NCBI RefSeq assembly: GCF_024204665.1
Contig: NZ_CP100355.1
Location: 3,081,451 to 3,145,450 of the forward strand
Direction: 5' to 3'
Origin: Natronosalvus rutilus
GTDB taxonomy: Archaea > Halobacteriota > Halobacteria > Halobacteriales > Natrialbaceae
Length of the DNA stretch: 64,000 nucleotides
Positions within the stretch are counted from its first letter, which is position 1; the number at the start of each line of letters is the position of its first letter. The notes beneath the pieces were generated by a model. That model was not told where the DNA came from, did no database searches, and saw nothing but the letters and a program-made list of their open reading frames with translations. This document shows, one piece after another, positions 4,992 through 15,757 of the stretch. The translations under genes were made by a program, and so were the position numbers.

Positions 4992-5879
4992 CTAGTAGTG
5001 CCACGGGTACTCCGAGAAGTCGGGTTCTCGTCCCTCGTTGAAGGCGTTTCGGCCCTCCATGGCCTCGTCGGTCATGTAGCCCAGTCTTGTCGCTTCGCCG
5101 GCGAACACCTGCTGCCCCACGAAGCCATCGTCGGCCATGTTGAACGCGTACTTGAGCATCCGCATCGCGTTCGGGCTCTTGGCGTTGATCTCTGCGGCCC
5201 ACTCGAGGGCGGTCTCCTCGAGATCCTCGTGGGGGACGGCCTCGTTCACCATCCCCATCTCTGCGGCCTCCTCTGCGGAGTAGGTCTTCCCGAGGAAGAA
5301 CACTTCGCGGGCTTTCTTCTGGCCGATCTGGCGGGCGAGGTAGGCGGAGCCGAAGCCGGCGTCGTAGCTCCCTACGTCGGGATCGGTCTGGAGGAACTTC
5401 GCGTGCTCCTCGCTCGCGAGCGTGAGGTCACAGACCACGTGCAGCGAGTGGCCGCCGCCGACGGCCCAGCCCGGAACGACGCAGACGACGATTTTCGGAA
5501 TGTGGCGGATCAGGCGCTGGACCTCGAGGATGTGCAGTCGACCCTGTTCGGACGCGCGCGCTTCGTCGCCCTCGTACTCGTAGCCGGCCTCGCCCCGAAT
5601 CGACTGATCGCCGCCCGAACAGAAGGCCCAGCCGCCATCCTTCGGCGAGGGGCCGTTTCCCGTCAGCAGGACGCACCCAACGTCGGTCTGGCGCTTGGCG
5701 TGGTCCAGGGCGTCGTACAGTTCGTCGACGGTCCCCGGGCGAAAGGCGTTGCGCACTTCGGGGCGGTCGAACGCGATGCGGACGGTCCCCGACTCGAGCG
5801 AGCGGTGGTACGTGATATCGCGGAAGTCGAACCCCTCGACCGGCTCCCACCGGTCGGGGTCGAACGTTTCCGAAACCAT
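4992..5879 (-). CDS. menB: 1,4-dihydroxy-2-naphthoyl-CoA synthase (MenB)
   Basis: Crotonase-superfamily enzyme, 295 residues, closing the second ring of the naphthoquinone from succinylbenzoyl-CoA. The oxyanion-hole segment WAFCSGGDQSIRG, VPGWAVGGGHSLHVVCDLT and DPDVGSYDAGFGSAYLAR are MenB hallmarks. It ends SEYPWHY, a conserved MenB tail type. ATG at 5879. Upstream 72 bases separate it from the Kef-type antiporter; thiE follows 13 bases downstream. Confidence 0.95.
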   Translation of the reverse strand: MVSETFDPDRWEPVEGFDFRDITYHRSLESGTVRIAFDRPEVRNAFRPGTVDELYDALDHAKRQTDVGCVLLTGNGPSPKDGGWAFCSGGDQSIRGEAGYEYEGDEARASEQGRLHILEVQRLIRHIPKIVVCVVPGWAVGGGHSLHVVCDLTLASEEHAKFLQTDPDVGSYDAGFGSAYLARQIGQKKAREVFFLGKTYSAEEAAEMGMVNEAVPHEDLEETALEWAAEINAKSPNAMRMLKYAFNMADDGFVGQQVFAGEATRLGYMTDEAMEGRNAFNEGREPDFSEYPWHY

Positions 5880-5951
5880 GGTTCGACGTGGGTTCGAGGT
5901 CGTGAAATAGGTTCTCGTCCGCGTTCGCTCTCGACGGACCGTCGCACTCGA

Positions 5952-7190
5952 TCACTCGACCTCGAGGGTAGCGTCGTCCATGAAGACGAGTTCGCCGGAT
6001 CGCTCGAGCCACTCGACGCCTAGCTTGACCGTCGGTGGGACGAGCGCCGTGGTGAAAATCGCCGTGAAGACCAGAATTGAGAAGAGTTCCTCGCCGATGA
6101 CGCCCGCCGAGAGCGCGATCGAGACGATGACGATCTCGACGGTGCCGCGGCCGTTCATCCCGAACCCGATAACCAGGCCCTCCCTTGAGGTGAGTTTCGT
6201 CGGAAGCGTAAACAGCCAACTCCCGAGAATTTTGCTGAGAAATGCGGTCACGACGATGAGCACGAGGAGTCCCAGACTGTCGGTGAACACGTCGAGCGTG
6301 AGGTCGAACGCGATGGTGACGAAGAAGATCGGCGCGAACAGCCCCATCGCCAGGTCGTACATCACGTCGTACATGTGCTCGTAGATGTCCGGCTCGAGCT
6401 GGGCCTGGCGGAGGAACAGCCCGGCGATGAATCCGCCGATGATCATGTGGAGTTCGACGAGCGCCGCAAAGAACGCGAAGATGAGGGCGACGATGAGCGC
6501 GACGGTGAACGCGGACGTCTTGTCGACGAATCGATGACGCTCCATCCAGTCTTCCATCCCGCTCCAGACGTACGGCAGGAACCGATTGCCGAAGACGAGC
6601 GCCGCCGCGAAGTACAACAGGGCTTCGCCGACGACCAGGCCGAGGCCCAGTGGGGTGACGTTGCCCGTTTCGACGAAACTCATGACGCCAGTAAACACGA
6701 CCATCACCCCCACGTCGGACAGCAGGGCACCGCCGAGGAGCACCCCTGCGATCCGCGTGTCGAGGATGTCGAGGTCGACGAGAATCCTGGACTTCGTGGC
6801 CAGGGAGGTTGCAGCCATGGCGATGCCGATGAAGAGCGCCTGCTCGATCGAGACGCCGATGAAGACGCCGACCAGGTAGCCGAGTCCGAACGGGACGATG
6901 AAGCCGCCGAACGCGACCATCAGCGCCTGGGGTCCGAGTTCGAATAGGTCGTTGATGTCGACCTCCATCCCGACGTAGATCATCAGCAAGAAGACGCCGA
7001 ACTCGGCGAAGACGTCGAGCGTCTCGCTCGGGTGCAAGAGCCCCAGCAGCGCGGGCCCAAAGAGGATTCCTGCGAGGATCTCCCCCATCAGGGCGGGATA
7101 GCCGACGCGCTCGACGAGGAGCCCGAATATCCACGCGAGCGTGAGCACCAGCAGCAGGTTCAGGAGATCGATACCGGCGGCTTCGACCAT
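5952..7190 (-). CDS. Kef-type (CPA2) cation:proton antiporter
   Basis: Polytopic membrane protein of 412 residues with about 12 hydrophobic segments and the CPA2 pattern (LVERVGYPALMGEILAGILF near the N-terminus, IGIAMAATSLATKSRILVD, GFGMNGRGTVEIVI late). Family members exchange Na+ or K+ for H+. There is no TrkA-N or TrkA-C domain, so gating through NAD(H) or a nucleotide is not suggested. It lies inside the men cluster between menD and menB on the same strand (78 and 72 base gaps). Its relation to quinone synthesis is unclear; it may be a passenger. Confidence 0.85.
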   Translation of the reverse strand: MVEAAGIDLLNLLLVLTLAWIFGLLVERVGYPALMGEILAGILFGPALLGLLHPSETLDVFAEFGVFLLMIYVGMEVDINDLFELGPQALMVAFGGFIVPFGLGYLVGVFIGVSIEQALFIGIAMAATSLATKSRILVDLDILDTRIAGVLLGGALLSDVGVMVVFTGVMSFVETGNVTPLGLGLVVGEALLYFAAALVFGNRFLPYVWSGMEDWMERHRFVDKTSAFTVALIVALIFAFFAALVELHMIIGGFIAGLFLRQAQLEPDIYEHMYDVMYDLAMGLFAPIFFVTIAFDLTLDVFTDSLGLLVLIVVTAFLSKILGSWLFTLPTKLTSREGLVIGFGMNGRGTVEIVIVSIALSAGVIGEELFSILVFTAIFTTALVPPTVKLGVEWLERSGELVFMDDATLEVE

Positions 7191-7268
7191 CTATGGGTCT
7201 GAGTACCCCAGCCAGCGGTAAGAGGATTGGTAACGAGGCATATACTCGGATCGTACCGCCGAGGTCTC

Positions 7269-9065
7269 TCACTCGAGGTCACGAACCGCCTCCAGGACGC
7301 GCCCCTCGAGCACTTCCCGCCGACGATGGCTCGCCTCGGCGTCGAACGACACCGAGAGCAGTTGCGTCCCTGATGTCGCGAACGACTCGCGGTAGGCGTC
7401 CTCGAATTTATCTGGCGCGACGTGGCGGACGTCGAATCCGTACAGTTCACCGAGGGGATCGAACTCGAGGCCGTGAGGCGTCCGGAACTGCTCCGTGAAG
7501 GGAGGATCGAACGACTCGATGGGAAGTTTGTGGAAGATGCCGCCGCCGTCGTTGTCGAGCAGGACGATCGTCGCGTCGACGCCGCAGCGTTTGAGCGCGA
7601 GCAGGCCGTTCGAGTCGTGGTAGAGCGCGAGGTCGCCGGTGACGAGCACCAGCGGGTCGTCGGTCGCGCTGCCGGCCCCCAGTGCGGTACTCACGATGCC
7701 GTCGATCCCGCTGGCCCCGCGGTTCGCGAGGACGGTGAGATCCGCGTCTCGAGGCTCGCCGAAGCGGTTGGCGTCTCGAATCGGCATGCTGTTGGAGACG
7801 AAGACAGTCGAGGGGTCGGGGGCGGCCTCGAACACTGTCGCGAGAATCGCACCCTCGAAGGGAGCGGACTCGAGGTCGGCTCGACCTGACGTCGAAACCG
7901 CCCAGTGGTGCGCTTCGGCGGCCGCGAGCGTCTCGAGCCAGGCGTCGTCGACTCGCGCGCGCGCCGTCTCCGTCTCGAGTTCGCTCGAGACGGCCTCGAA
8001 GAGGGACGTCGGTTCGGAGACGACGAGATCCGACGCGGTGAACGTCGCCTCGCGCCACTCGCCCGCGGGGTCGACCAGGAACTGCCGACAGTCAGCGTCC
8101 CGCAACGCGTGCCGGAGGGGTTTCGACGTGGGCGAGGCGCCGAATCGGATGACGGCGTCGGGGTCCGGGACGGCCTCGACGTACGTGTCGTAGCCGCCGT
8201 AGACCACCGGTTCGTCCTCGTCCGGCGTCTCGAGGTGCGACCCGAACCGCAGCGTCGACAGCGGGTCCGCGAAGATCGGTGCGCCGACGGCAGTCGCAAG
8301 GTCGACGACGGCGCTCGTTGCTAATTTCCTGACCGGCGGGTCCGCGGGCCCCGCAACGATCAGCGGTCGGGCGGCGTCCTCGAGCGCTCGAGCGATGCGT
8401 TCGGGTGTTCGCGAGTCCTCCGTCGAGGTCGTCTCCCCCGTAGACACCCGAACAAACGGCCCGTCGCGTCCCCGCCCGGCCAGCGTGTCCTCGAGTCCTT
8501 CTGGCACCGCGTCCGGCACTCGCGTCGGCTCGAGGGGCTTTCGGAACGGACAGTTCAGGTGAACCGGACCGGCCGGTATTCCCGAGGTCCGGGCGAGCGC
8601 TCGAGCGGCCGTCGTCCGCAGGCTTCGAAGCGCGCGCTCGTCGGGTTTGGGAACCGGGAGTTCTACGTACCAGCGAACGGCGTCGCCGTAGAGTTTCACC
8701 TGGTCGACCGTCTGGTTCGCCCCGCTGTCGCGCAGTTCGGGCGGCCGGTCAGCGGTCAGGACGAGCAGCGGAACCCGGGCCTGACTCGCCTCGATCACCG
8801 CCGGGTGGAAGTTCGCCGCGGCCGTTCCCGAGGTGCAGACGAGCGCCGTGGGCTCGCCGGTTCGTCGTGCGCGTCCGAGAGCGAAAAAGGCCGCCGAACG
8901 CTCGTCGAGGTGGGAGTACGTCTCGATCTCGGGATGCTCGGCGAACGCCACCGTCAGCGGCGTCGACCGACTGCCGGGGGCGAGACAGACGGCCTCGAGG
9001 CCCCCGGCGGCCAGTTCGTCGACGAGCGTGCGACCCCAGAGCGTCGCGCGGTTCGGTGCCGTCAT
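7269..9065 (-). CDS. menD: 2-succinyl-5-enolpyruvyl-6-hydroxy-3-cyclohexene-1-carboxylate synthase (MenD)
   Basis: ThDP-dependent enzyme of 598 residues condensing isochorismate with 2-oxoglutarate-derived succinic semialdehyde. The start MTAPNRATLWGRTLVDEL and APGSRSTPLTVAFAEH (with the activating Glu in DERSAAFFALG) are typical. The ThDP motif runs from LVTGDLALYHDSNGLL to LLDNDGGGIFHKLP. ATG at 9065, four bases after the menF stop, so menF-menD is a coupled pair. Confidence 0.95.
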   Translation of the reverse strand: MTAPNRATLWGRTLVDELAAGGLEAVCLAPGSRSTPLTVAFAEHPEIETYSHLDERSAAFFALGRARRTGEPTALVCTSGTAAANFHPAVIEASQARVPLLVLTADRPPELRDSGANQTVDQVKLYGDAVRWYVELPVPKPDERALRSLRTTAARALARTSGIPAGPVHLNCPFRKPLEPTRVPDAVPEGLEDTLAGRGRDGPFVRVSTGETTSTEDSRTPERIARALEDAARPLIVAGPADPPVRKLATSAVVDLATAVGAPIFADPLSTLRFGSHLETPDEDEPVVYGGYDTYVEAVPDPDAVIRFGASPTSKPLRHALRDADCRQFLVDPAGEWREATFTASDLVVSEPTSLFEAVSSELETETARARVDDAWLETLAAAEAHHWAVSTSGRADLESAPFEGAILATVFEAAPDPSTVFVSNSMPIRDANRFGEPRDADLTVLANRGASGIDGIVSTALGAGSATDDPLVLVTGDLALYHDSNGLLALKRCGVDATIVLLDNDGGGIFHKLPIESFDPPFTEQFRTPHGLEFDPLGELYGFDVRHVAPDKFEDAYRESFATSGTQLLSVSFDAEASHRRREVLEGRVLEAVRDLE

Positions 9066-9069
9066 GGGA

Positions 9070-10428
9070 TCACTCGCGGAGTTCGTCCAGGATCGGTCGG
9101 TACTTGAGCACGACCTCGTCCCACTCGTCGTCGGGGTCGCTGTCGGCGACGATGCCGTTGCCGGCGAATAGCGTCACCGCGTCCTCGCGGGCGACCCCCG
9201 AGCGGATGCCAACGGCGAACTCGCCGTCGCCGCCGGCGTCGAACCAGCCGATCGGCGCCGCGTACCACCCCCGGTCGAACGTCTCGACGTCGCGAATAGT
9301 CTCCCAGGCGGCTCCAGGAGGAATGCCGCCCACCGCGGGCGTCGGGTGCAGGGCCTCCACGACGTCGAGCACGTGGTGGCCGGCCTCGAGCGTCGCCTCG
9401 ATCGGGGTCCAGCAGTGTTGAATCGTGGCCAGCCGTTTGACCCGCCGCTCGTCGACACGGATGTCGGCCGCGAGCGCCTCGAGCTGGTTGCGAATCGTGT
9501 CGACGACGATGCCGTGTTCGCGCCGGATCTTCTCGCTGTCGAGGAGTCGGTCGGCCAGTTCCTCGTCGGCCTCCCTGGAGTCGCCGCGAGGGGCCGACCC
9601 CGCGAGCGCCTCCGTCCGAACGTCGGTGCCGGACTTCCCGACCAGGCGCTCCGGTGGGGCACCGAAGAACGTACCGCTCTCGCCGTCCCGGAAGAGAAAC
9701 CGGTAGCAGTTCGGGTACCGTCGGCGCAGTCGCTCGAGACAGGCCGGCACGTCGAGGGGGGTCTCGAGGTCGACCTCGAGGGCCTGGGCCAGGACGACCT
9801 TCTCGAGGACGCCGTCCGCGATGCGCTCGAGGGCCGTTTCGACGCCCTCGGTCCACTGCTCGCGCGATGTCGTTCGCCGGGTGTCGTCGATTCCGGGGCC
9901 TGTCCCGCTCGAGCGCATCGCGGGTCCGTCCGAAAGTCGGTCGTACCAGGACTCGAGTGCCCTCGTCGCGTCGTCGTCGCTCGTGTCGACCGCGGTGAGC
10001 CACGTTCCCTCGTCAGTTCGCGCGAGAATCACCGACGGAACGACGAACGTCGCCGCGGTGAACCCCGTCCAGGGGTCGCGCGGCTCGTGGCCGTCGTGGA
10101 AGGCGAATCCGCCGAACGCCCGCGGGCGGGCGACGGCGGGCCCGTCGTGGTCGACGCCGTCGAACGCCGCCGTTGCCTGCGCTCGAATCTCGTCGAACCG
10201 ATCCGGTCCGCTCGCGGTCAACCGGGCGGTCTCACCCCAGCCGACCAGTTCGAGGCCGTCGGCCGTCGCCCACTGCACCCGTGTTCCGCTGGCGTGTTCG
10301 AGTGCGGTCCCGAACGAGACGTCGCCGATGGAACGGCTCCGACTCACCAGTCGGCGGCCCGCTCCGGTCGCGGACGCCGTCGCCCGCCCGCTCGCGTCGA
10401 CTCGTCCCTGTCCCGACGGTCGATCCAT
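9070..10428 (-). CDS. menF: Isochorismate synthase (MenF)
   Basis: Chorismate-binding enzyme, 452 residues, committing chorismate to menaquinone. The C-terminal half carries EKVVLAQALEV, FRDGESGTFFGAPPERLV, EALAGSAPRG, the EHGIVVDTIRNQL helix and HPTPAVGGIPPG, all conserved in MenF/EntC. The N-terminal about 35 residues are low-complexity, so a somewhat later start is possible. It is the first gene of the men cluster and diverges from the small ORF and P1B ATPase at 10528. Confidence 0.93.
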   Translation of the reverse strand: MDRPSGQGRVDASGRATASATGAGRRLVSRSRSIGDVSFGTALEHASGTRVQWATADGLELVGWGETARLTASGPDRFDEIRAQATAAFDGVDHDGPAVARPRAFGGFAFHDGHEPRDPWTGFTAATFVVPSVILARTDEGTWLTAVDTSDDDATRALESWYDRLSDGPAMRSSGTGPGIDDTRRTTSREQWTEGVETALERIADGVLEKVVLAQALEVDLETPLDVPACLERLRRRYPNCYRFLFRDGESGTFFGAPPERLVGKSGTDVRTEALAGSAPRGDSREADEELADRLLDSEKIRREHGIVVDTIRNQLEALAADIRVDERRVKRLATIQHCWTPIEATLEAGHHVLDVVEALHPTPAVGGIPPGAAWETIRDVETFDRGWYAAPIGWFDAGGDGEFAVGIRSGVAREDAVTLFAGNGIVADSDPDDEWDEVVLKYRPILDELRE

Positions 10429-10496
10429 TGGCGCATTTCGGTGTGGGGGCGCCTTCAGCGTTTCGAGGTCGCTTTCTCGAGGTCCGATTTCGAACT

Positions 10497-10505
10497 CGTT
10501 TAACC
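10497..10505 (+). promoter_or_regulatory. Probable TATA box for the 10528 leader ORF/ATPase transcript
   Basis: CGTTTAACC lies about 23-31 bases before the ATG at 10528, the usual spacing for leaderless haloarchaeal transcripts. No in-frame start for the ATPase lies near this position, so the transcript would begin with the small ORF. Confidence 0.5.
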
Positions 10506-10527
10506 GCTCGCGTCCCTACGGTCGCCA

Positions 10528-10629
10528 ATGGTCTCGAGATCGGGCAGCCGGCGCAGTCCCGTCGAGCGACTCGCACGGACCCTCGAACAGGGGTGGATCG
10601 CCGACCACCCGGTGGTCTGCAGTGGCTGA
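10528..10629 (+). CDS. 33-codon leader ORF overlapping the P1B ATPase start
   Basis: ATG at 10528 opens 33 codons (MVSRSGSRRSPVERLART...) ending with TGA at 10627-10629. The stop lies 5 bases inside the ATPase gene, whose GTG is at 10622. A TATA-like element sits at the right distance for a leaderless mRNA starting at this ATG. The peptide is basic, unlike most proteins here, and has a single Cys three residues from its end. It may be a leader peptide that couples translation of the ATPase by termination-reinitiation. Whether the peptide itself has a function is unknown. Confidence 0.45.
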   Translation: MVSRSGSRRSPVERLARTLEQGWIADHPVVCSG

Positions 10630-13360
10630 GGACGACCAGGCGCCAGCGGCAACTATCTGCTCGCTGTGTGGCCGGGAGGTCGACGAGCCGTCGCCCGGAG
10701 AGAAGGCAACGCTCGAGGACGAAGCGACGTTCTGCTCGCCGGGCTGTCGACGTGTCTGGGAGACGCTCGAGCCGGATCCGTCGGCGGATCTCGCGGTGGA
10801 ATCCGGACCTCCGGGCCCCTCGAGTGAGGCACGCGACGAACACCTCGGTCCAGCAGACCCCGACGGTGAGGCGGAGGAGTCCCTGGAGGGCGTGGGCTCC
10901 AACGTCGCATACGGAGGCGGTCCGGACGATGCCGCTGGTGACGCAACTGCAGGCGCGAACGAGGCTGCCTCGGGAGACGTATCTGAAACCAAAGCCGTAG
11001 CCGAAGCCGACGCTGAAACCGAAGCCGACGAACAGGACGATCGCCCGCCGATACGCACCCACCTCCGGGTCGACGGCATGCACACCGCCACCTGCGAAGC
11101 CTACCTCGAGTCCGTCGCCACCGACCTGGACGGCGTCCTCGAGGCCGAGGCGAGTTACGTCACCGAGTCGGTTCGCGTCGATCACGACCCCGCGACCGTC
11201 TCGCCGGCGGACCTCCGCGACGCCCTGAGCATCACGGGGTACACGGCGTACCTCCGCGAGGATGCGGGATCACAGATCCAGGCTGACCAGATCGGAAAGA
11301 GCCGCCGCTCGCGCGAGATGAGCGGCGTCCGCAAGCGACGGACCGACGACATGCGTCAGGTCCGGTACGTCCTCGGTGTCGTCTTCGGGTCGTTCCTGCT
11401 CTTGCCCTACGTCGTGATGCTCTACCCGTCGTACATGGCGAACATGGCACCGATCGGCCCGCTCTCGTCGTTCCAGACGATCTTCACCGACGGCGGCATC
11501 ATGTTCATGCGGGTCTACTTCGTCCTGACGGGAATCGTCCTCTACGTCACCGGAATGCCGCTGCTCCGGGGCGCCTACGTCAGCCTCAAGCTTCGGCGCC
11601 CGAACACGGACCTGCTCGCGGCGATGACCATCGTCGGTGCCTACCTCTACAGCTCCGTCGCCGTCTTCGTGACCAGCCCGAACGTCTACTTCGACCTCGT
11701 GCTCGTCGTCGCCTCCGCCGTCATGGGTGCGATCCTCTACGAGTCGATGGCCAAACAGCGCGCGATGGATCGCCTGACCGAACTCACGATCTCCCAGGTC
11801 GACAGCGCCCGCCGATACGAGACCGACGGATCAGTCACCGACGTCGACGTGGCCGACCTCGAGGCCGGGGACACCGTCCTCGTCAAGCAGGGCGAGCGCA
11901 TCCCGATCGACGGCGTCCTCGCGGAGGGGACCTGCACGGTCGACGAAGCAATCGTGACCGGCGAATCCGTTCCCATCGCCAAAGACGCGGGCGACGAGGT
12001 CGTCGGCGGCTCGATCGTGACCGCCGACGCCGCCGTGATCGAGGTCGACGACCGCGGCTCGAGCAGCCTCGACCGTCTCACCGAAACGGTCTGGGACCTC
12101 CAGACCGCCGTCCACGGAACCCAGCGGCGGGTCGACGACCTGGCCGGCCGACTCGTTCGACCGCTTGTCGGCACCACAATCGCCGCCGGCGTCGTCGCGC
12201 TCGTCCTCGGGCGCGGTCCAGGCGAGGCGACCCTCTGGTCGCTGACGGTCGTCCTGGTCGGCACCCCCTGGCTGCTCGGCGTAGCGACGCCGCTATCCAT
12301 CGCGACGAACATCGAGGCGGCGCTGGAGCGCGGCGTCGTGGTCTTCGACGAGACCGTCTTTGAGCGGCTTCGAGCGATCGACACGATCGTCTTCGACAAG
12401 ACCGGCACGCTCACCCGCGGCGAGATGACCGTCCTCGAGGCCGAGGCTCCCGTCGACTTGTTGTCGGCGGCGGGAGCGCTCGAGCAGCGGGCGTCCCATC
12501 CCGCTGCGGACGCCATCGCTCGAACCTACGGCGTGGGTGGGTCCGACTCGAGCGACAGCGATCGTGGCGACGATACTGCGACTCGCCCCGACGGCGGTGC
12601 GGCCGGCGAACACGCCACCGCAAACCGGGTGTCGGACTTCGAGAGCCACGGAAACGCCGTCGAGGGAACCGTCGGCGGCAGTCGCGTGCTCGTCGGCCAC
12701 CCCGACGCGTTCGCCGATCGGGGGTGGACGCTGGGTGAGGACATCGAAACCCGCGCGAGCGAGGCGCGCGGCTTCGGACGCCTCCCCGTCGTCATCGGTC
12801 GAGACGGAACCGCCGAGGGCGTGATCGTCGTCGGCGACGAGCCCCGCCCCGGCTGGGAGGAGACGCTTTCGGGGCTCGAGGCGCGCGGCATAGACGTGGT
12901 CGTGTTGACCGGCGACGACCCGGAGGCCACGGACGCCTTTGAGGCCCACCCGGCAGTCTCCCACGCGTTCGCGGGCGTCCCACCCGAGGGGAAGGTCGCG
13001 ACGGTTCGCCACCTCCGGGAGCGCGGGCGGGTGGCGATGGTCGGCGACGGGACGAACGACGCGCCCGCGCTGGCCGAGGCGGACCTGGGTATTTCGCTTG
13101 GAAGCGGCACCGACCTGGCCTCCGACGCCTCCGACCTGGCGATCGTCGAGGACGACCTGGCGTCGATCGAGACGGCGTTCGAACTGGCCGCGGCCGCCAG
13201 CAAACGGGTCGAGCAAAACGAGCGACTCGCTTTCTCGTACAACGTGCTCACCATTCCCGCCGCCGCTGCAGGACTGTTGAACCCGCTCGTGGCGATCCTG
13301 GCAAGCGTCGTCGGGCTCGGCCTGCTGGGCGGGAACTCCCTCCGATCGCTCCTCGAGTAG
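10622..13360 (+). CDS. P1B-type heavy-metal ATPase lacking the CPC motif (CcoI/FixI-like layout)
   Basis: About 912 residues from GTG 10622. An N-terminal Cys-rich segment (CSLCGREV ... FCSPGCRRVWE) resembles the metal-binding domain found at the front of CcoI/FixI ATPases, followed by an acidic linker and an HMA-like domain with the altered loop GMHTATCEAY. The P-type core is intact: VTGESVPI, FDKTGTLT with Asp592, an SHPAAD nucleotide-site motif, and VGDGTNDAPALAEA. The sixth membrane helix, where Cu or Zn pumps carry CPC, reads GTPWLLGVATPLS (Thr548-Pro-Trp550). The last helix lacks the MxxSS motif. The transported ion therefore cannot be assigned. The open frame continues 5' to 9821, but that part is antisense to menF. 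Confidence 0.85.
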   Translation: MAEDDQAPAATICSLCGREVDEPSPGEKATLEDEATFCSPGCRRVWETLEPDPSADLAVESGPPGPSSEARDEHLGPADPDGEAEESLEGVGSNVAYGGGPDDAAGDATAGANEAASGDVSETKAVAEADAETEADEQDDRPPIRTHLRVDGMHTATCEAYLESVATDLDGVLEAEASYVTESVRVDHDPATVSPADLRDALSITGYTAYLREDAGSQIQADQIGKSRRSREMSGVRKRRTDDMRQVRYVLGVVFGSFLLLPYVVMLYPSYMANMAPIGPLSSFQTIFTDGGIMFMRVYFVLTGIVLYVTGMPLLRGAYVSLKLRRPNTDLLAAMTIVGAYLYSSVAVFVTSPNVYFDLVLVVASAVMGAILYESMAKQRAMDRLTELTISQVDSARRYETDGSVTDVDVADLEAGDTVLVKQGERIPIDGVLAEGTCTVDEAIVTGESVPIAKDAGDEVVGGSIVTADAAVIEVDDRGSSSLDRLTETVWDLQTAVHGTQRRVDDLAGRLVRPLVGTTIAAGVVALVLGRGPGEATLWSLTVVLVGTPWLLGVATPLSIATNIEAALERGVVVFDETVFERLRAIDTIVFDKTGTLTRGEMTVLEAEAPVDLLSAAGALEQRASHPAADAIARTYGVGGSDSSDSDRGDDTATRPDGGAAGEHATANRVSDFESHGNAVEGTVGGSRVLVGHPDAFADRGWTLGEDIETRASEARGFGRLPVVIGRDGTAEGVIVVGDEPRPGWEETLSGLEARGIDVVVLTGDDPEATDAFEAHPAVSHAFAGVPPEGKVATVRHLRERGRVAMVGDGTNDAPALAEADLGISLGSGTDLASDASDLAIVEDDLASIETAFELAAAASKRVEQNERLAFSYNVLTIPAAAAGLLNPLVAILASVVGLGLLGGNSLRSLLE

Positions 13361-14001: not shown

Positions 14002-14979
14002 ATGGCCGTCATCGATCTCGAGGGGCTCACGAAGGACTACGGCGACGTGCGAGCGGCCGACGATCTCACGCTCACCGTCGACCGGGGCGAAATCTTCGGC
14101 TACCTCGGTCCCAATGGGGCGGGCAAGACCACGACGATCCGCATGCTGCTCGGCTTCATCTCGCCGACGGCAGGATCGGCCCAGGTCCTCGGCGCGGATA
14201 TCCGCGACCGGAAGGCGTTGCTCGAGGCCAGGCGCCAGGTCGGCTACCTCTCGGACGACCCCGGGTTCGACGAGGAGGCGACCGGAACCGAAATCCTCGA
14301 CCTCCACGCCGCGGTGAAAGGGGGCGAGCGCCGGGACGAACTGCTCGAGTTGTTCGATCCGCCGCTCGACCGCCAGGTACGCGAGTACTCCCGCGGGAAC
14401 GTACAGAAGCTGGGCATCGTCACGACGTTCATGCACGACCCCGACCTCGTGATCCTGGACGAGCCGACCAGCGGGCTCGATCCGCTCATGAAACAGCGCT
14501 TCTCGGAGTTCCTGCGAGCCGAACGCGACCGGGGCGTGACCACGTTCTTCTCCTCGCACATTCTGAGCGAAGTTCGCCGGCTCTGTGACCGCGTCGGCAT
14601 CATCCGTAACGGGCGGCTGGTCACGGTCGACCCGATCGAGACCCTGCTCACCCGGAGCGGGAAAGTCGTCCGCATCCACGCCAGCGAGTCGATTCCTGTC
14701 GAAGTCCTCAACCTCGAGGGCGTTCACGGCCTCGAGACGAGTACAAGCGATAGCAGCGGAGGCAACGGAAGCGAGAATGGCGACACGGGCGACGGTGACA
14801 GCCCGGCCGTCGCGGGCGAACAGACGGCGCACTTCAGCGAGTGCGCGTTCACCTTCACCGGCGACATCAACGCCCTGCTCGAGCGCCTCGCCCCCTACGA
14901 CCTGCTCGACCTCTCAATCGAGGAGGCACCACTCGAGGACGTCTTCATGCGGTTCTACGGAGGTGAGGACGATGTTTGA
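14002..14979 (+). CDS. ABC-2 type exporter, ATP-binding subunit
   Basis: 325-residue ATPase of the CcmA/DrrA type. Walker A is GPNGAGKTTT, Walker B is LVILDEPTSGLDP, and the switch His is in FSSHIL. The signature loop is YSRGNVQKLGI rather than the canonical LSGGQ, a variation seen in ABC-2 exporters. A Gly/Ser/Asn-rich linker (about 248-270) separates the ATPase from the C-terminal domain. It overlaps the permease gene by 8 bases. Substrate unknown; antibiotic, lipid or polysaccharide export and membrane-protein roles are all possible. Confidence 0.88.
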   Translation: MAVIDLEGLTKDYGDVRAADDLTLTVDRGEIFGYLGPNGAGKTTTIRMLLGFISPTAGSAQVLGADIRDRKALLEARRQVGYLSDDPGFDEEATGTEILDLHAAVKGGERRDELLELFDPPLDRQVREYSRGNVQKLGIVTTFMHDPDLVILDEPTSGLDPLMKQRFSEFLRAERDRGVTTFFSSHILSEVRRLCDRVGIIRNGRLVTVDPIETLLTRSGKVVRIHASESIPVEVLNLEGVHGLETSTSDSSGGNGSENGDTGDGDSPAVAGEQTAHFSECAFTFTGDINALLERLAPYDLLDLSIEEAPLEDVFMRFYGGEDDV

Positions 14980-15757
14980 ATTCCTCCGGTACGAGGCCCG
15001 AAAGCGGGTGAAAGGCAGCCTCTACCTTTCGCTCGGGATGATCGCGCTGGCCGCGATGATCGTCTGGGTCTATCCGTCCTTCCGCGACTCGTTCCAGGAG
15101 GACGAACTCCTCGATGCCTACCCGCCACAGATCCTCCAGCTGTTCGACGTCGAGACGATGGCATCGCTCGAGGGCTTTCTCGCCTTCGAGTTCTACGTCT
15201 TCGGCTGGGTCATCCTCCTCGGGCTCTACCTGGCCTACAGCGCCGCCGGACTGATCGCTGACGACGTCGACCGCGGCCGGATGGACACCATCCTGGCGAT
15301 GCCGGTTTCGCGACCGCAACTGGTCGTCGAGAAGTTCGCCGCCCTCGCCGTGCCCATCGTCACGGTGAACCTCCTCCTCCCGCCGGTGATCCTCGCGGGC
15401 GGGTGGCTCATCGACGAGTCGCTCTCCGTGGCGGACGTCTTCGCGGTCCACCTGCTCTCGATTCCCTACCTGTTCGCCTGCGCCGGAATCGGACTCTGCT
15501 GTTCGGTCGTCTTCGATCGGGTGGGAATTGCCCAGCGCGCCGCCCTCGGAATCACCTTCGGAATCTTCCTCGCCGAATCGCTGCTCGAGGGGACCGGCTA
15601 CGAGTTCCTCGGGGCCGTCGTCCCGATGCGCTACTACGATCCGAACAATATCCTCCTCCAGGGCGAGTACGACTTCGTCGGCGTCGCGATTCTCGTTGCG
15701 ATTACGCTCGTCCTGGTCCTCGCCAGCAGCGCCTGGTTCACGCGAAAAGACGTCTAA
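14972..15757 (+). CDS. ABC-2 type exporter, permease subunit
   Basis: 261 residues from the ATG at 14972, inside the end of the ATPase gene (ATGTTTGA overlap). About six hydrophobic segments and the motif DDVDRGRMDTILAMPVSRPQLVVEKFAA are typical of ABC-2 membrane subunits. It pairs with the upstream ATPase. It converges with the molybdopterin gene, with a single base between the two stop codons. Confidence 0.85.
   Translation: MFEFLRYEARKRVKGSLYLSLGMIALAAMIVWVYPSFRDSFQEDELLDAYPPQILQLFDVETMASLEGFLAFEFYVFGWVILLGLYLAYSAAGLIADDVDRGRMDTILAMPVSRPQLVVEKFAALAVPIVTVNLLLPPVILAGGWLIDESLSVADVFAVHLLSIPYLFACAGIGLCCSVVFDRVGIAQRAALGITFGIFLAESLLEGTGYEFLGAVVPMRYYDPNNILLQGEYDFVGVAILVAITLVLVLASSAWFTRKDV

Follow-up and report, generated by a model that had tools for sequence, protein, structure and literature searches.

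A haloarchaeal clade of P1B-type ATPases with Pro-Trp at the position of the Cys-Pro-Cys metal motif

Results

A P1B-type ATPase with an intact catalytic apparatus and a TPW motif in helix M4

The window analysed here is a stretch of 64,000 nucleotides on contig 1 (NZ_CP100355.1) of the Natronosalvus rutilus genome (G000; 4 contigs, 99% complete). A gene on its plus strand (10622–13360, GTG start) codes for a P1B-type ATPase of 912 amino acids (P0001), one of ten P-type ATPases of this genome; the others are two CopA-like CPC pumps, two CPH pumps, one Zn/Cd-type CPC pump, one SPC pump and three non-P1B ATPases. P1B-type ATPases fall into classes according to the metal motif of transmembrane helix M4, which is CPC, SPC, TPC or CPH. 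In P0001, M4 (helix 6 of 8, 12218–12328, +) reads Thr548-Pro549-Trp550 in frame at the Cys-Pro-Cys position (ACC CCC TGG, 12263–12271, +), as the original prediction had stated.

The catalytic motifs that the original prediction had listed as intact were all present in the translation: TGES of the phosphatase step (11957–11968, +), DKTGT with the phosphorylation site (12395–12409, +) and GDGTNDAP (13043–13066, +); the His-Pro of the P1B ATP-binding domain was found as well (12497–12502, +). With these motifs, the A, P and N domains of a P1B-type ATPase are complete. In line with this, E1-E2_ATPase (PF00122), Hydrolase (PF00702) and HMA scored above the Pfam cut-offs (ATPase-cat_bd was a weak match), and the NCBIfam heavy-metal P-type ATPase model TIGR01525 gave 386 bits against a cut-off of 346, whereas the Cu-specific TIGR01511 and the Cd-specific TIGR01512 stayed below theirs.

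Several positions at which copper pumps hold metal are altered in addition to M4. Thr329 occupies the position of the copper-entry Met (11606–11608, +), and the CxxC of the HMA domain (11054–11248, +) has become TxxC (GMHTATC). In helix 7 (13226–13243, +), Leu869 replaces the Trp of CPC pumps and Tyr873-Asn874 is present. The last helix (PLVAILASVVGLGLLGGNSL; 13283–13342, +) was correctly described in the original prediction as free of the usual metal residues: Ser895, Gly898 and Leu899 stand at the CopA Met and Ser-Ser positions. An N-terminal four-Cys site, C13-x2-C16 ... C38-x3-C42 (10658–10747, +), resembles PF12156 at a score under the cut-off.

The Pro-Trp pumps form one clade within the haloarchaeal CcoI-like group

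Of the 392 genomes of the order covered by a protein search, 377 contained P1B relatives, and the 30 best relatives, taken by similarity alone, all had Pro-Trp (xPW) in M4. A pattern of Pro-Trp, 123 bases and DKTGT matched 124 of 384 genomes (backward control, 0), namely 82 of the 94 sampled genomes of the window's family and 42 of 290 others of the order. Altogether, 123 distinct haloarchaeal xPW sequences were collected (SPW 90, CPW 19, TPW 9, APW 4 and NPW 1), so that the first M4 residue switches freely among S, C, T, A and N. The TPW pattern, for which a search among haloarchaea had been proposed, therefore does recur, as a minor variant beside SPW and CPW.

In a tree of 138 rows, all 98 haloarchaeal xPW rows grouped together as a single clade with an SH-aLRT of 100. 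This clade was nested among the haloarchaeal CcoI-like CPC pumps and apart from the CopA, CopB-like and Zn/Cd-type pumps of the host genome. The clade was recovered with a support of 100/99 in a mixture-model tree of 49 rows, from which the TPW, entry-site, helix-7 and helix-8 ligand columns had been removed beforehand. The CcoI label of the parent group comes from its architecture and its linked oxidase and TauE genes, and the tree holds no bacterial CcoI/FixI; with this scope, the nesting bears out the kinship with CcoI/FixI suggested originally, and the xPW clade appears to have descended from a CcoI/FixI-like copper pump. On the 138-row tree the TPW state needs about six changes; the first residue is thus labile, and the Trp is what stays fixed. 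We accordingly rejected TPW as a class of its own, given that it recurs among SPW and CPW relatives; the claim that the pump lies outside the CPC, SPC, TPC and CPH classes holds, and holds for the whole clade, but its signature is Pro-Trp and not the TPW triplet.

Outside haloarchaea, the same family was not found among the matches listed in a global scan for the pattern. A FixI-like gene of Massilia sp. YIM B02763 (L100/L309) has CPW in M4 and keeps the helix-8 MxxSS, but its GDGxND has become GNGIDD and its upstream frame is broken; it looks like a decaying gene unrelated to the haloarchaeal clade. A P-type ATPase of an Acetobacteraceae MAG (L122) with GPW in M4 and GDGINDV lies on a long branch far from that clade. 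On a plasmid of Halarchaeum sp. CBA1220 (L294:3890–6343), a CcoI-like relative reads CPV in M4, has a changed HMA site and lies in a cluster with a P1B-2 Zn/Cd-type pump gene and a cation diffusion facilitator gene; it is another ligand-modified offshoot.

Soft-metal ligands are replaced across the clade while catalytic residues are kept

Metal ligands were tabulated for 119 xPW proteins and 20 CPC CcoI-like sisters, and every ligand was present in 20/20 of the sisters. At the copper-entry position (LpCopA Met148), the xPW proteins have Thr (101), Ala (11) and in no case Met. The helix-8 Met is found in none of the 119 and both helix-8 Ser are mostly replaced, with Thr, Ser and Gly occurring in this helix. 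In the HMA domain, Cys1 is kept in 13 of 119 (Ser in 86) and Cys2 in 113, so that CxxC has generally become xxxC; the N-terminal four-Cys site is retained (117–119 of 119). The third-position Cys of the M4 motif is absent from every member examined. The Trp in its place (119/119) is constant partly by construction, as many loci were fetched by the Pro-Trp pattern (which leaves the other losses unaffected), and is independently backed by the 30 loci fetched by similarity alone. The soft-metal ligands have thus been lost together across the 119 members; the entry Met, HMA Cys1 and helix-7 Trp, on which the original prediction was silent, are among the losses.

The catalytic Asp, the Gly of TGES, the His of HP and the Gly and Asn of GDGxND are each present in 119/119 xPW proteins, as is the M2 Asp, and the helix-7 Tyr and Asn are found in 114 and 117, respectively. 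At position 869 of helix 7, Trp is constant in the CPC sisters and in five CopA-type pumps, while 92% of the xPW proteins have Leu, as if a bulky residue had been moved from helix 7 to M4. When the known sites are compared, the helix-7 Asn alone remains of the CcoI Cu+ sites CPC (TM-MBS1) and N-M-S (TM-MBS2), and the third-position Cys shared by the SPC and TPC motifs of P1B-4 and P1B-5 is Trp in all clade members. Because the Cu+ sites are missing, we do not file the TPW protein as a functional CcoI despite its CcoI-like descent.

The fold is predicted intact and the transport core is relaxed

An AlphaFold2 model built from an alignment of 65 sequences (four plasmid-collection rows were left out) had a mean pLDDT of 80.5 and a pTM of 0.78. 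Its best match in the PDB was LpCopA in the E2P state (4bbj, TMt 0.80). M4 was modelled as two helices (533–547 and 552–569) with a break at TPW (548–551) and a block pLDDT of 94–98 nearby. Model and match together predict that the P1B fold and the M4 kink are intact.

Close xPW pairs had dN/dS values of 0.07–0.28. At matched P-domain identity (0.6–0.7), the mean identity of xPW pairs was lower than that of CPC pairs in M4 (0.46 vs 0.73), M5 (0.52 vs 0.83) and M6 (0.40 vs 0.85) and similar in the HMA (0.59 vs 0.57), A (0.60 vs 0.60) and N (0.55 vs 0.55) domains. The core dN/dS was 0.20 for xPW and 0.07 for CPC, against P-domain values of 0.12 and 0.11 (29 xPW pairs vs 3 CPC pairs). The transport core of the xPW proteins is thus specifically relaxed and the catalytic engine is not, with purifying selection throughout.

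Genomic neighbourhood and co-occurrence

Directly downstream of the pump lies a truncated globin gene (PF01152; 13483–13842, +), which is a neighbour only in the three TPW genomes of the genus, followed by genes for an ABC ATPase (14002–14979) and an ABC-2 permease (from 14972; together 14002–15757, +) that probably stand outside any conserved system. Over 82 loci, no conserved partner or regulated target was found to adjoin the xPW gene, and recurrent MATE, ABC and phosphoribosyltransferase-like neighbours were lineage-specific. A function deduced from neighbours was therefore rejected, also in view of the restriction of the globin to the three TPW congeners.

Some copies do lie among metal-related genes. 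The xPW copy on Haloarcula marismortui pNG600 is part of a metal-resistance island, and at three loci from three families of the order a P1B-2 Zn/Cd pump gene is directly upstream on the same strand (L234:7712–12795, gap of about 90 bases; L237:7972–13085, overlap of 4; L240:5364–9984, gap of 7). The linkage to oxidase assembly expected of CcoI/FixI was not found at the window locus; exceptions elsewhere are one xPW copy adjoining heme-copper oxidase genes (L060) and one adjoining a TauE-like gene (L073).

Relatives with about 47–53% identity are mostly CPC pumps, often beside a TauE/SafE-type gene (HCxGMCGP, PF13386; L061–L080 except L073 and L074, plus L202). In one case (L058), a CPC CcoI-like gene (5641–8103) and an SPW gene (8941–11430) are arranged in tandem on one strand. 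Among the 124 genomes with the Pro-Trp pattern, 113 also matched an SCPC pattern, which can catch a few Zn/Cd pumps too; replacement of the CPC CcoI by the Pro-Trp pump was therefore rejected as a general rule. Within the genus of the window, the SCPC pattern, a TauE/DsbD_2-like gene and a nearby gene for a heme-copper oxidase subunit I of about 590 amino acids were all present in G094, G100, G300 and G321 and all absent from the three TPW genomes (G000, G237 and G297), showing that the TPW gene persists without the oxidase-assembly module. In this genus, the loss of the CPC pump was accompanied by that of the supposed client oxidase and the partner gene.

Discussion

Sequence comparison establishes that the clade is monophyletic and conserved and evolves under purifying selection, that its ATPase engine is intact, and that its members have a relaxed membrane core in which the canonical soft-metal path is missing. 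Since the metal-holding residues are replaced, the xPW proteins probably do not pump Cu or Zn; from the ligand loss, which is directly visible, we infer that Cu+/Zn2+ transport has likely been lost by the clade. Clade members carry the annotation 'cation-translocating' or heavy-metal P-type ATPase; with the ligands gone, these annotations, and copper-resistance inferences derived from them, are likely wrong for a clade carried by most genomes of its family and found elsewhere in the order.

The reading that we tentatively favour, at somewhat less than even chances, is that of a former copper pump that would no longer move Cu+ or Zn2+ and would use its ATPase cycle for sensing or switching. Cys-Pro-Cys in M4 has become (Ser/Thr/Cys/Ala/Asn)-Pro-Trp, and with it went the Met of the entry site, the Met and Ser-Ser of helix 8 and, in most members, HMA Cys1; the ATPase machinery has stayed, as has the four-Cys site at the N-terminus. 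In this reading, Trp550 would occupy what was once the ion pocket, at the kink of M4, ATP-driven E1/E2 cycling would continue, and the cycle could signal metal binding or redox state at the N-terminal cysteines, making the protein a sensor or regulator derived from a transporter and no longer an exporter of soft metals. The single nested clade, the ligand losses beside fully kept catalytic residues, the relaxed M4–M6, purifying selection throughout, the retained four-Cys site, the CopA-like predicted fold and the reciprocal Trp all speak for this, as do the defects of ligand mutants: changing CPC to Ala in Caulobacter FixI gives the deletion phenotype (PMC12617631), and mutations of the CPC Cys, YN and MxxSS of AfCopA impair Cu+ binding (PMC9433437). 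On the other side, a working pump would be expected to keep its catalytic residues just the same, the relaxed core could reflect a substrate that makes few fixed contacts, the helix-7 Tyr-Asn and M2 Asp persist in the membrane part, and no conserved partner or regulated target adjoins the gene. The broader proposition, that a whole P1B clade has given up metal pumping and now consists of ATP-hydrolysing sensors or regulators, in which a conserved Trp plugs an unconstrained transport site while the catalytic cycle is kept, is conceivable but on balance doubtful; we found no described precedent for such a pump-to-switch conversion in the P1B family. Eukaryotic P1B pumps have been raised as possible transceptors (PMC10654040). 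The original choice between a different ion and a regulatory role was well posed; the relaxed transport core tilts it towards regulation without proving it.

A serious competitor, although we would not expect it to be correct, is that the xPW proteins still transport another substrate, either a hard cation held by hydroxyl and carbonyl groups, or else a hydrophobic or organic molecule for which few fixed ligands suffice. The full P-type catalytic set, purifying selection and the retention of Tyr-Asn and the M2 Asp would fit such a pump, as would Thr or Ala at the entry position, Ser or Thr in M4 and Thr, Ser and Gly in helix 8, and several copies are found within metal-resistance islands or immediately follow a P1B-2 Zn/Cd pump gene. 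However, M4–M6, the expected seat of a new specificity, are the least conserved part of the protein, and the first M4 residue varies freely. The combination of relaxed core and constrained engine is the main reason why we rank a role other than transport slightly above a new specific pump. If the clade does transport something else, it would define a new substrate class; if no metal is transported during the ATPase cycle, it would offer a natural test of uncoupling P-type catalysis from transport.

It is unlikely that Cu+ or another soft metal is still pumped by way of the remaining Cys, Tyr and Asn, HMA Cys2 and the four-Cys site. The CcoI-like descent, the single Cys kept by the 19 distinct CPW members and the copies in copper-resistance islands or adjoining heme-copper oxidase or TauE/DsbD_2 genes would agree with this, but the third-position Cys, the entry Met and the helix-8 Met are missing from every member examined, equivalent mutations abolish FixI function and impair CopA copper binding, and in the genus of the window the TPW gene has outlasted the CPC pump, the TauE-like gene and the oxidase. 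The lost ligands, the relaxed core and the truly decaying Massilia gene could suggest that the gene is the decaying remnant of a copper-pump duplicate, but this is very improbable and largely refuted by the present data, given its occurrence in 82 of 94 family genomes, the low dN/dS values and the catalytic motifs in 119/119 members. A sequence error at 12263–12271, which the original prediction had considered, was ruled out, as the same TPW is repeated in two other congeneric assemblies (L012 and L013) and Pro-Trp occurs in more than 100 other genomes; together with a dN/dS of 0.12–0.14 among the three TPW congeners and xPW in the 30 similarity-fetched relatives, this leaves neither error nor chance as an explanation.

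Comparison with known systems

A search of the literature, covering few subscription journals, found no paper on xPW pumps. In hydroxyl residue at the first M4 position, the TPW protein resembles P1B-4 (SPC) and P1B-5 (TPC) pumps; the third position is Cys in those classes and Trp here. The Massilia gene shares CPW with some haloarchaeal members and, unlike them, keeps MxxSS and has lost GDGxND and its upstream frame. CopA pumps (P1B-1; LpCopA 4bbj/3rfu, AfCopA), which include the best fold match, share DKTGT, TGES, HP, GDGxND and the helix-7 YN; the TPW protein differs from them in lacking CPC, MxxSS and the entry Met and in having a four-Cys N-terminal site not found in CopA.

CcoI/FixI proteins (CopA2-type P1B-1) supply Cu+ for cytochrome oxidase assembly, and CcoI exports Cu+ and has two sites at its N-terminus, which are important but not essential (PMC8475189). 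With them the TPW protein shares the domain order (N-terminal Cys site, HMA, eight transmembrane helices, A, P and N domains) and the catalytic motifs, whereas in the xPW clade xPW stands for CPC, the Met of the entry site and the Met and SS of helix 8 are lost, HMA Cys1 is lost in most members, and the genes generally have no adjoining TauE/DsbD_2 partner. The haloarchaeal CPC CcoI-like paralogue has the same architecture and often occurs in the same genome as an xPW gene, but, unlike the xPW proteins, it retains all Cu+ ligands, often has a partner gene and is strongly conserved in M4–M6.
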